Source: Kribbella sp. NBC_01245 (GTDB lineage Bacteria > Actinomycetota > Actinomycetes > Propionibacteriales > Kribbellaceae). From it: DNA of 64,000 bases. Positions 4,446 to 59,592 of this stretch are shown in pieces. The notes under the pieces were generated by a model. The model was not told the DNA's origin. It worked only from the letters and a program-made list of their open reading frames with translations, and ran no database searches. Position numbers and translations under genes: made by a program. The stretch lies in NCBI RefSeq assembly GCF_036226525.1, contig NZ_CP108487.1:7316001-7380000 (forward strand). The letters run 5' to 3'. How positions within the stretch are numbered: position 1 is the stretch's first letter; each line of letters opens with the position of its first letter.

Positions 4446-4551
4446 CCTTCTTTTGCGTTCATTCGTCGGAATCCGCCCTCTCGGCTCAGTGGACAGGTGC
4501 AGGTCAGCGGTGAGAAGAGGGCGGATTCCGACGAATGAACGCAAAAGAAGG
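4446..4551. repeat. Family A palindromic element, copy 1
   Basis: Two perfectly complementary 36-bp arms (4446-4481 and 4516-4551) separated by a 34-base loop. The arm core reads GCGTTCATTCGTCGGAATCC and continues GCCCTCT. The element lies between the stop of the LysR gene (4556) and the start of the nucleotidase gene, both on the minus strand. Four related copies lie elsewhere in the window. It has no T-run after the hairpin and no coding potential. Confidence 0.9.
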
Positions 4552-12122: not shown

Positions 12123-12198
12123 GCCCACCATCCTTCTGCGGCGGCGTCACCCCGAATAGGAGAAACCGGCACAATCCCACCGCCCGGCTCCCGCTTTA

Positions 12199-12286
12199 GC
12201 ATTCATTCGTCGGAATCCGCCCTCTTCCCACCGCGGACATCTGCTGCTCCGCTGCGCTGAGAGGGCGGATTCCGACGAATGAATGC
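12199..12286. repeat. Family A palindromic element, copy 2
   Basis: Perfect 27-bp arms at 12199-12225 and 12260-12286 with a 34-base loop. The arms begin GCATTCATTCGTCGG, carrying A where copies 1 and 5 carry G, with the matching T in the other arm. It sits between divergent genes, the NmrA-like gene on the left and the AraC gene on the right. Confidence 0.9.
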
Positions 12287-12396
12287 AAATGGTTGGGCGC
12301 GTTCGTTGGGCGCAGCCATAGGTGGGCGTTGGATCGGTTTGGCGGCTGGTTTTGCGGGGTTGTGGCTGCGCTGGTGTCCGCTTCGGATCGCCAGGC

Positions 12397-22257: not shown

Positions 22258-23424
22258 CTACTGGCTTTCGGTGAGCACTGATTCGACCACCTCCCGGGGT
22301 AGGCCGTGGGTCTCGCGAAGGAAGGTGAAGTCGGACTCGGTCAACGGCCCGCGCTCGTGCAGGCGGAGAACGCGGTCGCGGCCGCGGTCGAGCAGCTGGC
22401 GGAAACGCCGTTCCTCGTCGAGCAGGAGTTCGCGGATGCGACCGGGGTCGTCGGGCTGACCGAAGTGGTCGATCGTGTGCTGGATCAGGTCGATCGGCAG
22501 CTCCTCCAGGCCGTGCGTCGGATCGAGCCGGCGCAACGTCGTCAGCGAGCGGCGGACCAACCGGCGCAGGACGTAACCCCGCCCGGTGTTGGACGGGCGT
22601 ACGCCATCCCCGATCACGACGATCGACGAGCGGAGATGGTCCGACAGGATCCGGAATGACGTCTCGTCGGGCCGCCAGAGACGTCGTACGTGCTGCGACC
22701 AAGGCCCGAACTGGTCCGTCTCGTACACCGAATCGACGCCCTGCAAGAACATCAGCAATCGCTCGAACCCCATCCCTGTATCCACGTTGGACGGCGTGAA
22801 CGGCCGCAGCACGCCATCGTCGTACCGGTGGAAACGCATGTGGACGTGGTTCCACACCTCGACCCAGCGCGGGTCTGTGCTGGGGGTGCCCTCGGGTTCG
22901 GTATTGCCGGTCCAGACAAAGATCTCGCTGTCCGGGCCGCACGGACCGGTCGGGCCGTTCGACCACCAGTTGTCGTCGACGAGGCGCTCGACCGGTAGGC
23001 CGAGTTCGGACCAGACGCGTTCGGATTCGAGATCGGGTCCGACTTCGTGGTTGCCGCCGAAAACCGTTACGTGTAAGCGGTTTAGGCCGAAGCCGTTGGT
23101 GAGTAGGTCGTACCCCCAGCGCAGGCTCTGCTCGTGGGTGTAGTCGCCGAGTGACCATGACCCGAGCATCTCGAACACGGTCAGGTGCGAGGTGTCCCCG
23201 ACCTCGTCCAGGTCTGTCGTACGCAGACATCGCTGGCGGTTCGACAGCCGTCGGTGTGGATGCCGTCGCGTGCCGTCGAGGTATGGCGTGAGGGGGTGCA
23301 TGCCCGAGGTCGTGAACAGGACCGGGTCGCCGGGCTCGGGCAGCAGGGTGCTGCCGGTGATGCGGTGATGTCCGCGATCGCTGAAGAAGTCTTCGAACGT
23401 GCGCAGGACTTTGGTGGATTCCAT
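22258..23424 (-). CDS. Alanyl-tRNA synthetase paralogue reduced to the catalytic core
   Basis: 388 residues, against about 880 for full AlaRS. It keeps the class II aminoacylation core: motif 2 region with FEMLGSWSLGDY at 84-95, GPCGPDSEIF near 160-169, DTGMGFERL at 215-223 and GRGYVLRRLVRR at 281-292. It lacks the editing domain, the C-Ala domain and anything beyond the start of the helical tRNA-recognition domain. It could form alanyl-adenylate, and charge tRNA poorly or load another carrier. It is preceded by an alanine-rich leader peptide and terminator, so it looks controlled by alanyl-tRNA supply. It is probably not the housekeeping enzyme. AAAGG lies seven bases before the ATG. Confidence 0.9.
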   Translation of the reverse strand: MESTKVLRTFEDFFSDRGHHRITGSTLLPEPGDPVLFTTSGMHPLTPYLDGTRRHPHRRLSNRQRCLRTTDLDEVGDTSHLTVFEMLGSWSLGDYTHEQSLRWGYDLLTNGFGLNRLHVTVFGGNHEVGPDLESERVWSELGLPVERLVDDNWWSNGPTGPCGPDSEIFVWTGNTEPEGTPSTDPRWVEVWNHVHMRFHRYDDGVLRPFTPSNVDTGMGFERLLMFLQGVDSVYETDQFGPWSQHVRRLWRPDETSFRILSDHLRSSIVVIGDGVRPSNTGRGYVLRRLVRRSLTTLRRLDPTHGLEELPIDLIQHTIDHFGQPDDPGRIRELLLDEERRFRQLLDRGRDRVLRLHERGPLTESDFTFLRETHGLPREVVESVLTESQ

Positions 23425-23476
23425 CGGAGTGCCTTTCGGGAGAAGGCGACCGACAGCTCACGGGCTCCAGGAACGG

Positions 23477-23507
23477 AAAAACCGGCGAACTGTCGCGTTC
23501 GCCGGTT
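23477..23507 (-). terminator. Intrinsic terminator in the AlaRS-paralogue leader (attenuator)
   Basis: On the minus strand an 11-bp perfect stem, AACCGGCGAAC with GTTCGCCGGTT, encloses GCGACA and runs into five T residues. It lies 22 bases after the leader peptide stop and about 55 bases before the AlaRS-like start, so transcription must pass it to reach the gene. Confidence 0.88.
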
Positions 23508-23528
23508 TGCTGGAGTGAACTCAGAAGC

Positions 23529-23600
23529 TCAGGTCTGATCAGCCGACGGCGCGAACGCCCCGGCTGCTGCAACCCTCACCCAAGTCCTCATACCCGCCAT
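23529..23600 (-). CDS. Alanine-rich leader peptide for the AlaRS paralogue
   Basis: A 23-residue reading frame with seven alanines, six of them within eleven codons (VAAAGAFA then PSA). The codons GCA GCA GCC are consecutive. The end of the frame overlaps a possible hairpin, CAGCCG...CGGCTG around GGCG-TTCG-CGCC. An internal GCGTTCGC is complementary to GCGAACGC in the rising arm of the downstream terminator, which would allow an antiterminator. The ribosome site is weak (GGTAGG just before the ATG; a second in-frame ATG lies nine bases on). The design matches ribosome-mediated attenuation responding to charged tRNA-Ala. Confidence 0.62.
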   Translation of the reverse strand: MAGMRTWVRVAAAGAFAPSADQT

Positions 23601-23626
23601 CCTACCAACCCTCTGCCACCCCCTTT

Positions 23627-23900
23627 TTTTCCGTTCATCGGACCCTTGTGACGCGGCGTGTCGGCATTCATCGGTCCCTTGTGACCAGCACGGCGGGCCC
23701 AACGCCTCTGCATTCATTCGTCGGAATCCGCCCTCTCCCGTCTGCTGACCCGCGCCGGTCCGCTGTGGCTGAGAGGGCGGATTCCGACGAAAGAATGCAA
23801 GTGACGGACGGCTAGCGGGTCGATGCCGGATGGCGCGCGTGGTCAGAAGGGACCGATGAATGCCGACACGCCGCGTCACAAGGGTCCGATGAACGGAAAA
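23627..23900. repeat. Composite nested palindrome: 54-bp outer arms around family A copy 3
   Basis: The outer arms, 23627-23680 and 23847-23900, are perfectly complementary over 54 bp. Each arm contains two related pieces, CGTTCATCGG-ACCCTTGTGAC and CATTCATCGG-TCCCTT. Inside is family A copy 3, arms 23709-23737 and 23771-23799 with one mismatch. The whole 274 bp could extrude as a large cruciform or fold as a long RNA hairpin. It fills the gap between the AlaRS leader and the GNAT gene; no gene lies in it. Confidence 0.92.
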
Positions 23901-23939
23901 GAGGGGAGGCGGGGGAGTGGGGGTCGTTAGGGTCGGGGT

Positions 23940-24410
23940 ATGGAGTTGCGTGCGGCGGTGAGTGGGGATGCGGGAGTGGTGGCGGGGATTTGGTATGCGG
24001 GGTGGCGGGATGGGCATTGGGGGCATATTCCGGAGGCGTTGGTGGCGGTGCGGACGCGGGAGTCGTTTGACTTGCGGGCGGCTGAGCGGGTTGGGGATAC
24101 CACCGTTTGTACGGTCGACGGGCGCGTCGTTGGGTTCGTGATGGTGGTGGGGGATGAGGTCGAGCAGGTCTATCTGGCTAGCGATCAACGCGGTTCGGGG
24201 TTGGCGGCGGAGTTGCTGGCCGAGGCGGAGCGGCAGGTCAGGGCGAATGGGCATAGCCGTGCCTGGCTTGCGGTGGTCGAGGGCAATGCCCGGGCGCGCC
24301 GGTTCTACGAGCGCCAGGGCTGGGTGAGCGAGGGCCCGTTCGACTACCAGGCGTCGTCCGCGGACGGCCCGATCGCCGTACCTTGTCTCCGCTACGCCAA
24401 GCCAGTCTGA
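23940..24410 (+). CDS. GNAT-family N-acetyltransferase
   Basis: 156 residues with the GNAT fold: beta-strand VGFVMVVGDEVEQVYLASD, the acetyl-CoA loop DQRGSGLAAELL at about 81-92, and NARARRFYERQGW near the C-terminus. It transfers acetyl from acetyl-CoA to an amine on a small molecule or protein; the acceptor is unknown. The ATG at 23940 follows GGGGAGGCGGGGG-type sequence. It lies right after the composite palindrome and ends ten bases before the convergent beta-helix gene. Confidence 0.88.
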   Translation: MELRAAVSGDAGVVAGIWYAGWRDGHWGHIPEALVAVRTRESFDLRAAERVGDTTVCTVDGRVVGFVMVVGDEVEQVYLASDQRGSGLAAELLAEAERQVRANGHSRAWLAVVEGNARARRFYERQGWVSEGPFDYQASSADGPIAVPCLRYAKPV

Positions 24411-26157: not shown

Positions 26158-26233
26158 CCGCGAGTGGTCGCGTCTGACCCGGCACACCGACGTCTGCTGA
26201 GCCGCCGCGTGGACCAGACGCGACCACTCGCGG
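26158..26233. repeat. Family B palindrome between divergent genes
   Basis: Perfect 19-bp arms, CCGCGAGTGGTCGCGTCTG at 26158-26176 and its complement at 26215-26233, with a 38-base loop. It lies 25 bases before the XRE-NB-ARC gene start. Confidence 0.9.
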
Positions 26234-33802: not shown

Positions 33803-33886
33803 TCAACCCCTCCCCGCCCCACCCCACGTCCACCCAAGGTCTCCGCGACCTCAACTAAAGACGCGCTCCCGCCCCGGTGTGTCGGT

Positions 33887-34125
33887 ATCCCGTTCATCGG
33901 TCCCTTATGACCGAAGGCGTGCGCCAACCGCACTTTGCATTCATTCGTCGGAATCCGCCCTCGCCCGCGCGCTGGCCTGTACTGGACTGCGGTGGCTGAG
34001 AGGGCGGATTCCGACGAATGAATGCAAAGTGAAGGTGCCTGGCGGGTCGCCGCGGAGAGCCGCGTGGTCAGAAGGCCCGACGTACGCCGATACGCCGCGT
34101 CGGAAGGGACCGATGAGCGGGATAC
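33887..34125. repeat. Composite nested palindrome around family A copy 4
   Basis: Inner family A arms are perfect over 31 bp (33933-33963 and 34001-34031) with a 37-base loop. Outer arms at 33887-33907 and 34105-34125 pair over 21 bp with one mismatch (TATCCCGTTCATCGG against TATCCCGCTCATCGG). The outer sequence is related to that around copy 3. It fills the gap 33803-34146 between two minus-strand genes; no gene lies in it. Confidence 0.9.
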
Positions 34126-45430: not shown

Positions 45431-45534
45431 CTTCTTTTGCGTTCATTCGTCGGAATCCGCCCTCTTGCCACCGCGGACAGGTGCTTCGCCGCGGCGCTGA
45501 GAGGGCGGATTCCGACGAATGAACGCAAAAGAAG
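45431..45534. repeat. Family A palindromic element, copy 5
   Basis: Perfect 35-bp arms at 45431-45465 and 45500-45534 with a 34-base loop. The arms are the same subtype as copy 1 (TTTTGCGTTCATTCG). Its loop resembles that of copy 2 (both contain CCACCGCGGACA). It lies between the terminator and the GH18-like gene. Confidence 0.92.
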
Positions 45535-46603: not shown

Positions 46604-46692
46604 CTTCCTGCCGCGAGTGGTCGCGTCTGATCCGGGCAGCAACTCAGCCGCGTCGACCGTGCGGACCAGATGTGACCACTCGCGGCAGGAAG
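46604..46692. repeat. Family B palindrome after the GH18-like gene
   Basis: Left arm 46604-46629 (CTTCCTGCCGCGAGTGGTCG onward) and right arm 46667-46692 pair over 26 positions with two mismatches, around a 37-base loop. It lies between two plus-strand genes. Confidence 0.88.
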
Positions 46693-58540: not shown

Positions 58541-58812
58541 TCACGGGCAAGGCCCAGGGGCCCACCTGTCCATAGCGCTGCCACGGCCGGACGCAGAATG
58601 CGACCCGCGCACGGATTTGGGGATAACCCTCCCGCGAGGTGCCTTATGCGTCGCGCGCGTGCAAACACAAGGAGGCACCTCGCGGCAAGGTTGTCCACAA
58701 AACAGCCCGCACGTGTGCGGTTGGGGCTTAGGCGCCGTGGGCTCGGCATCCACAGGCGGCCCGCATTCCGCGTCCGACCGTGGCAGGCCTTCCATGCGAC
58801 TGGACGCGCCAT
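58541..58812. repeat. 270-bp nested palindrome, copy 1
   Basis: Contains an outer pair TGCCACGGCCGGACGCAGAA (58579) with its near complement ending at 58785, and an inner perfect 13-bp pair CCGCGAGGTGCCT (58632) with AGGCACCTCGCGG (58673). It includes TTGTCCACA at 58691 and GCATCCACA at 58746, like DnaA boxes. A second copy follows about 454 bases downstream. No gene is present. Confidence 0.85.
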
Positions 58813-59340
58813 AACGCGACCACGCATGCCCATTCCCCTCCGCGATTAGACGCGTCATAACGCGACCACGCCTGCCCAATTCCCCCTGCAAGTGGACGCG
58901 TCATAAGGCGACCACGCGCGCCCGACCTTCTCGCGAGTGGACGCGTACTGCCGCGACCACTCGGGCGCCGGCCCGCCGATCCGGGCGGCGCCTCGCGGGT
59001 AAGGGCGAGGGGGCTCGCCTGTGGATAGTGCTGCCACGGTCGGACGTGGAATGCGGCGCGCGGGCGGATATTGGGGACAACTCTGTCGCGAGGTGCCTTG
59101 TTGTGTCGCGCGTGTGCAAACACAAGGAGGCACTTCGCGCGAGGGTTTTCCACAAATCAGCCCGGACGTGTGCGGTTGGGACCTAGGGGCTGTGGGCTTA
59201 GCGTCCACAGGTGGGCCGCATTTTGCGTCCGACCGTGGCGGGGATTCAATGCGAGTGGACGCGTCATTACCTGACTACTCGTGTCCAGGGTCTGCGCGGG
59301 GGCGTCAGGACGCGACCATTCGCGGGCAAGATCCCCGCGA
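58801..59340. repeat. Region of diverged family B units between the large repeats
   Basis: Repeats of the type GGACGCGTCATAACGCGACCAC occur around 58801, 58848, 58890 and 58930, and again after 59250, interleaved with copy 2 of the large repeat (58993-59266). Each is a weak inverted repeat. No gene is seen. Confidence 0.7.
58993..59266. repeat. 270-bp nested palindrome, copy 2
   Basis: Aligns along its length with 58541-58812. It keeps the outer and inner palindromes with several changes, and carries CTATCCACA (minus strand, 59020), TTTTCCACA (59146) and GCGTCCACA (59201). Confidence 0.85.
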
Positions 59341-59592
59341 GTGGTCGCGTATGCGGTGACGACGCGTGCCCCGAGTCCCCGCGAGTGGTCGCGTTGTGCG
59401 GTGACGACGCGTGCCCCGAGTCCCCGCGAGTGGTCGCGTATGCGGTGACGACGCGTGCCCCGAGTCCCCGCGAGTGGTCGCGTTATAACGCGACCACTCG
59501 TGCCCAAGATCCCGCGAGTGGTCGCGTTTTGACGTGATGACGTGTGGCTAAGGGCCCCGCAAGTGGTCGCGCCCTAACGCGACCACTTGCGG
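59341..59592. repeat. Tandem array of 44-45 bp family B units
   Basis: GTGGTCGCG recurs at 59341, 59385, 59430, 59474, 59518 and 59563. The first three units are nearly identical. The fourth forms a 30-bp uninterrupted perfect palindrome at 59471-59500 (CGAGTGGTCGCGTTA and its complement). The sixth is a 15-bp inverted repeat with a six-base gap (59557-59592). The array ends 21 bases before the stop of the GH39-like gene. Confidence 0.92.

Follow-up and report, generated by a model that had tools for sequence, protein, structure and literature searches.

Introduction

BIMEs are mosaics of REPs in which several repeats lie in opposite orientation between genes, and MITEs are short, non-coding elements that have long inverted ends and occur in many copies. 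REPINs are described, in the available part of PMC3116915, as REP doublets that form hairpins. The abstract of PMC3733652 names gamma- and alpha-Proteobacteria as the main groups with reported tagged REPs; the text of that paper contains no mention of Actinobacteria, Streptomyces, or Kribbella and does mention untagged REP-like families in M. tuberculosis. Genomes with REPs but without a RAYT gene are mentioned in the corresponding part of PMC6006769. GTAG-tagged REPs are explained by RAYT enzymes.

Here we describe a nested hairpin structure in a 64-kb window (the whole stretch of DNA that was analysed, positions 7316001–7380000 of a one-contig Kribbella chromosome of 8,679,014 bp). The structure is real and probably no artefact, and it is one copy of a scattered family of hairpin repeats, apparently a new and lineage-specific form of the REP/REPIN/BIME-like kind. 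In literature searches on palindromic repeats in Kribbella and on REPs, dispersed palindromes, bidirectional terminators, and MITEs in actinobacteria, this family was absent among the matches listed.

Results

Anatomy of the window palindrome

The locus consists of two outer arms that enclose a hairpin of family A (Table 1). The longest mismatch-free stretch at the locus is 54 bp, over which the outer arms are perfect reverse complements of each other; when mismatches were allowed, the arms extended to 67 nt with 96% complementarity, differed at 3 of the 67 positions, and were separated by 152 nt. The arms of the enclosed A hairpin are 97% complementary. Each outer arm contains two TTCATCGG.CCCTTGTGAC pieces (B units) at a spacing of 33 bp, and in some A hairpins the arm starts with CATTCATCGGTCC, the same as the start of the B unit. 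The identical 54-bp arms, the hairpin between them, the two related pieces in each arm, and the CATTCAT start common to these pieces and family A were thus all as described in the original prediction. Its account of a nested palindrome held for the nested hairpin; rather than a single perfect palindrome, the whole is a hairpin flanked by dispersed repeats in inverted pairs, and its two spacers differ in length (25 and 44 bp).

Table 1. Coordinates of the palindrome and of further family A loci in the window
Feature	Position	Strand	Details
Left outer arm	23627–23680	+	Exact 54 bp; 67-nt arm with mismatches 23621–23687; B units 23634–23652 and 23667–23685
Short spacer, second B unit to A core	23686–23710		25 bp
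Family A hairpin	23709–23799		29-nt arms (23709–23737 / 23771–23799), 33 nt between; 25-bp core arms from 23711
Long spacer, A core to inverted B unit	23798–23841		44 bp
Right outer arm	23847–23900	−	Exact 54 bp; 67-nt arm 23840–23906; inverted B units 23842–23860 and 23875–23893
Solo A hairpin	4446–4551
Solo A hairpin	12196–12289
Second, partial composite	33885–34125		A hairpin 33931–34031, single B unit on either side
Solo A hairpin	45431–45534

Folding of the 286-nt stretch gave a z score of −20 as RNA and −18.9 as DNA, and none of 200 shuffles equaled either value. The A-arm motif was found 10 times in the 64-kb window with up to three mismatches, compared to 0.30 expected, and none of 100 shuffles reached 10. 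An assembly error at this copy appears unlikely because the same anatomy was found at other loci with different letters.

Other repeats are also present in the window. A third kind of palindromic repeat, CCGCGAGTGGTCGCGT, forms several inverted pairs (26158–26233, 46604–46692, and 59379–59592), and a cluster of further inverted repeats with 36–39-nt arms and GGGGATAACC-like pieces occupies 58607–59239. Pieces of TTATCCACAGG, similar to the GGGGATAACC-like ones, occur in congeners at one orthologous convergent site.

Family size and distribution

About 130–150 A hairpins are present in the 8.68-Mb chromosome. Genome-wide, A-arm motifs with up to three mismatches numbered 155 forward and 151 reverse, and B units with up to one mismatch numbered 127 forward and 106 reverse (233 in total), with no matches in either control. 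A special reason for the persistence of the palindrome, namely function or recent formation, had been suggested; it found no support, as the outer arms belong to this family of 233 units. The sequence fetched for closer analysis covered 1.83 Mb, about 21% of the genome, and contained 193 clusters of A/B matches, in which chance matches at 4–5 mismatches are possibly included, and 107 complete A hairpins. Since these stretches were mostly picked around known copies, the hairpin, cluster, and context counts obtained from them are not genome totals.

The composite sequence had no match among plasmid and phage records, and the B pattern was absent from viral contigs. The exact 20-mer of the A arm was found neither in viral contigs nor in a genome-contig collection, which is incomplete: it lacks G031, a genome carrying an exact 24-mer copy, and possibly the source genome too. 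A search of the 64-kb window against Rfam yielded no match above the gathering score; at E ≤ 5, the matches were confined to six microRNA models and a single viral snoRNA model, all under the gathering score.

Arms, loop, and pairing of the A hairpin

In 400 pairs sampled from 90 main-subfamily A hairpins, identity was 97% in the arms, 67% in the loops, and 47% in the flanks, and the loop measured 34–38 nt in 105 of 107 hairpins. Over the 25 core pairs of these 107 hairpins (2675 pair cells), departures from the commonest pair were two-sided in 88 cells and one-sided in 20. The second base pair of the arm was A-T in 66 of the 107 and G-C in the other 41, with no other pair. An alignment of 51 copies (every other one of the 107 hairpins, 54, minus three) demonstrated a covariation score of 0.153 compared to 0.072 when shuffled (0 of 500 as high), and two-sided change was observed at 18 of 41 pairs (shuffled mean 11.4); further pair types were unexceptional (44 vs. 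40.0 shuffled, with 33 of 500 shuffles as high). G-T pairs as intermediates were nearly absent.

The inner stem within the loop was weak, with 68% of cells paired. Pairing extended past the conserved arm in a copy-specific manner, by at least 10 more bp with one mismatch allowed in 33% of the copies, compared to 2% when flanks of different copies were combined. At the base of the stem, the 5′ strand carried T and the 3′ strand A (T-A in 89, 96, and 91 of 107 hairpins at three positions). The terminator scans covered loops of 3–8 nt and therefore have no bearing on A hairpins, the loops of which are about 36 nt. By inspection, GTAG was not seen on either strand of the A-arm consensus; CGTC was present within the arm, but without the 8–9 bp stem for which it is the foot. 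More kinds of hairpin that resemble A by eye were noticed at 7200001–7540000 of the chromosome, with arms GCGACGATCGGTCCCAATTTGCCGCT and a shorter form CGTTCATTCGTCGGAATACGGC.

The composite B-A-B unit

The B units, 33 bp apart, were mostly oriented toward A. Twenty A hairpins in the 1.83 Mb were flanked by B on both sides, and 13 of these had one spacer of 19–29 bp and another of 41–48 bp, in both orientations. The layout of the directional unit is B-B, about 26 bp, A, about 45 bp, and inverted B-B. Spacer likeness between composite copies was 0.66 and 0.62, compared to 0.46 and 0.49 for shuffled sequence. The spacer sizes and this likeness between copies suggest that the composite is a directional unit and was copied as such. 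The A hairpins in B-bearing clusters belonged nearly all to one arm subfamily, with A at arm position 2 in 35 of 36, and hairpins without B had A at that position in 31 cases and G in 40.

Inverted B pairs on both sides were compared at 24 loci, 17 with an A arm in the cluster and 7 without. B-arm identity averaged 85% within a locus, a figure slightly favored by the choice of the best pair per locus, vs. 81% between loci (a value that none of 5000 permutations reached), and the outer arms of the window copy ranked highest at 97%. The greater likeness within loci suggests that some correction of one arm to the other is possible, and the exact 54 bp is the top of the distribution of arm identities, perhaps helped by such correction. 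B-only inverted pairs were considered as empty targets of A, and this was rejected: two of the pairs read, at 6639941 and 8003990, appear by eye to retain a right-hand tip of A and therefore may be deletion scars. Orphan A tips were few in general (4 of 197).

Position relative to genes

Gene contexts were obtained with a crude codon-usage gene caller. A stop codon lay within 30 nt in 45 of the 68 solo A hairpins with parsed context, compared to 8.3% under random placement, and a start codon lay within 30 nt in 2 of the 44 that have one adjoining. The 69 solo A hairpins were located between convergent genes in 24 cases (16% expected), tandem genes in 37, and divergent genes in 7, with 1 unparsed. 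The composites, including the window copy, are less bound to gene 3′ ends: clusters with both A and B were convergent in 12 of 44 cases, divergent in 8, and tandem in 24. In single-orientation B arrays, the gene 3′ end was on the head side in 32 of 49.

In its placement, the window copy departs from the usual pattern: it lies between a divergent AlaRS-like gene with a putative leader and a GNAT gene starting at 23940, which was missed by the caller. The AlaRS-like gene (388 aa) matches PF01411 and lies under the alaS equivalog cut-offs. Upstream of it, on the minus strand at 23424–23591, are a short frame MRTWVRVAAAGAFAPSADQT with many Ala codons and a 12-bp hairpin (23479–23508), which together are a candidate for leader-peptide attenuation by alanine supply. 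A special tie of the palindrome to this leader, which had also been proposed, was unsupported, as other composites are located elsewhere; a transcript role of the window structure is possible, as a candidate only.

Relatives and sister families in Kribbella

A conserved stretch of about 2.35 kb was 79–83% identical in 28 of 37 congeners, and the other nine gave shorter or weaker matches. None of the 37 contained a B unit with up to one mismatch or an A arm with up to two. By these sequence comparisons, the A/B repeats are lineage-specific with respect to the congeners searched, all of them fairly distant relatives.

A covariance model of A, scored on at most 106 candidates per genome, gave one match beyond the source genome among the 37 congeners (G007, E 9e-8). 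This match is a family member with 77 matches of its DNA in G007, both strands counted, and 20 of 20 stretches of the sister repeat matched records of Kribbella catacumbae DSM 19601. The K. catacumbae arms start with TTCATTCG and end mostly with CCCTC, as in A; the middle is CCCCCTTTTCA or similar, with CGCC where the A arm has CGTC. Eight of 10 loci were parsed, and in seven of these copies a predicted gene 3′ end was no more than 30 nt away; the arm was absent from viral contigs. Hairpins with the tip pattern numbered 131 in the source genome, 35 in G007, 3 in G031, 2 in G008, 1 in G015, and 0 in 33 genomes, with 0 in the control. Hairpins with arms of at least 25 and loops of at most 60 numbered 25 in 340 kb of the source genome, several of them outside family A, vs. 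none in 200 kb of G009 and one in 200 kb of G033.

Ten congener loci were read at an orthologous convergent site, and their gaps were 12 and 21 bp, 65 and 75 bp, 108–120 bp at four loci, and 221 and 401 bp. One of these loci carries an exact CACTCACCAACC ... GGTTGGTGAGTG hairpin, and three more are similar by eye. The CACTCACCAACC ... GGTTGGTGAGTG hairpins, an unrelated-looking family with lengths clustered near 69–70 and 79–80 bp and variable loops, were found in 19 of 38 Kribbella genomes and were absent from the source genome.

Search for an enzyme and for transposition marks

The source genome contained one partial match to PF01797 (Y1_Tnp; 27.7 bits, model positions 44–111 of 121), and none was found in 12 relatives, G007 not among them (control matches in 5 of 14). 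As a candidate RAYT, this match at 1478393 was rejected; it is a partial IS200/IS605-type Y1 match adjoining TnpB. The adjoining IS605-type TnpB is a 481-aa frame (L086 53–1689). No complete A and no B unit was present within 2 kb of the Y1 match in the fetched stretch. At the 69 solo A hairpins, a search for target-site duplications gave no excess of direct repeats of lengths 3–9 at any tested offset; the largest, 4 of 69 for a 3-mer vs. 0.6 expected, was as expected given the number of trials.

Discussion

The data suggest that the window structure is probably a copy of a dispersed, non-autonomous REPIN/BIME-like hairpin repeat, spread by single-strand hairpin copying and tolerated or used at mRNA 3′ ends. 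The A hairpin would be the REPIN-like unit, in which two conserved arms of 25 bp, inverted to each other, enclose a loop that varies in letters and hardly in length. Together with the paired B units 33 bp apart, it would make up a composite, BIME-like unit, which would also have been copied as a whole. Spread may occur by copying of the single-stranded hairpin, with a putative enzyme acting in trans and recognizing the conserved arms. Copies beside stop codons would survive because a hairpin transcribed at the 3′ end is tolerated or aids in defining or protecting the end of the mRNA. Mobility is inferred from the copy number and from a single orthologous site at which two congeners have only a short gap, which loss in those congeners could also explain.

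Selection on functional RNA hairpins, acting as two-way terminators or as stabilizers of mRNA 3′ ends, with copying rare or long past, is a rather unlikely explanation of the family. The polarity of the stem base, with T 5′ and A 3′, is the opposite of what an intrinsic terminator requires and speaks against a classical one, even if A sits 10–30 nt past stop codons and solo copies are enriched between convergent genes (24 of 69 vs. 16%). Strong pairing with two-sided changes would fit such a function, but the arm letters are conserved and not the pairing alone, G-T intermediates are nearly absent, and 2 of 10 congener loci at the orthologous convergent site have only 12–21 bp.

It is improbable that A is a MITE family moved by a DDE transposase, with the arms as terminal inverted repeats. 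Its long inverted arms, core of about 86 bp, and many copies would suit such an element, but the finding of no target-site duplication at 69 solo A hairpins speaks against it, the loops diverge far more than the arms, and no gene-bearing full-length element was encountered in the part of the genome covered. A recent inverted duplication or assembly artefact at the window locus alone, to which the exact 54-bp arms, the highest arm identity of 24 loci, and the excess of arm likeness within loci over that between loci (0 of 5000 permutations) might point, is very improbable given the same anatomy elsewhere with different letters and the 3 of 67 differing positions.

Beyond the dispersed hairpin repeat of the source genome, a tentative wider reading is that a genus-level superfamily of mobile hairpins exists in Kribbella. 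Its tips would be fixed (TTCATTCG outside and mostly CCCTC inside in the two largest sets) and the arm middle swapped between lineages; it could spread without RAYT through a single-strand enzyme or through polymerase template switching in which one arm serves as the template of the other, with B-A-B as a second, larger replicating form. Copying of this kind would likewise account for outer stems that are specific to each copy but self-complementary. An actinobacterial genome that has abundant REPIN-like hairpins with arm letters of their own and in which no RAYT was found, together with the sister family of another species, makes REP-like spread without RAYT testable in related genomes. The case also illustrates how a palindrome that stands out by itself can turn out to be an ordinary repeat-family member.

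Compared to known systems, A differs from intrinsic terminators, in which a GC-rich hairpin is followed by a T run, in that the 3′ side of its stem base is A-rich. It resembles MITEs in being short, non-coding, and present in many copies with long inverted ends, and differs in that no target-site duplication was found. The composite is like BIMEs in combining several oppositely oriented intergenic repeats; its letters are unrelated, and it has a direct pair spaced 33 bp on each side and a hairpin of another kind in the middle.

The best reading is that A works like a REPIN; the statement that it is one fails on the GTAG foot and on RAYT. The likeness to REPINs, as these are presented in the available part of PMC3116915, includes two conserved ends in inverted orientation, a spacer whose length is kept better than its letters, compensatory changes, a high copy number, and the hairpin as the unit. 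The differences are the 25-bp arms, with no GTAG-tagged REP in common and no RAYT found in the source genome, and outer stems that extend in a copy-specific manner. Families with CGTC and without a dedicated transposase, described in the available part of PMC3733652, are a further parallel, but CGTC lies inside the A arm rather than at the foot of an 8–9 bp stem, and in the K. catacumbae family its place is taken by CGCC. With the tagged REPs in the same part of PMC3733652, the A/B repeats share a location within about 20 bp of gene 3′ ends and species-specific families, and some REP dimers there sit within long palindromes, as A does within the B arms.
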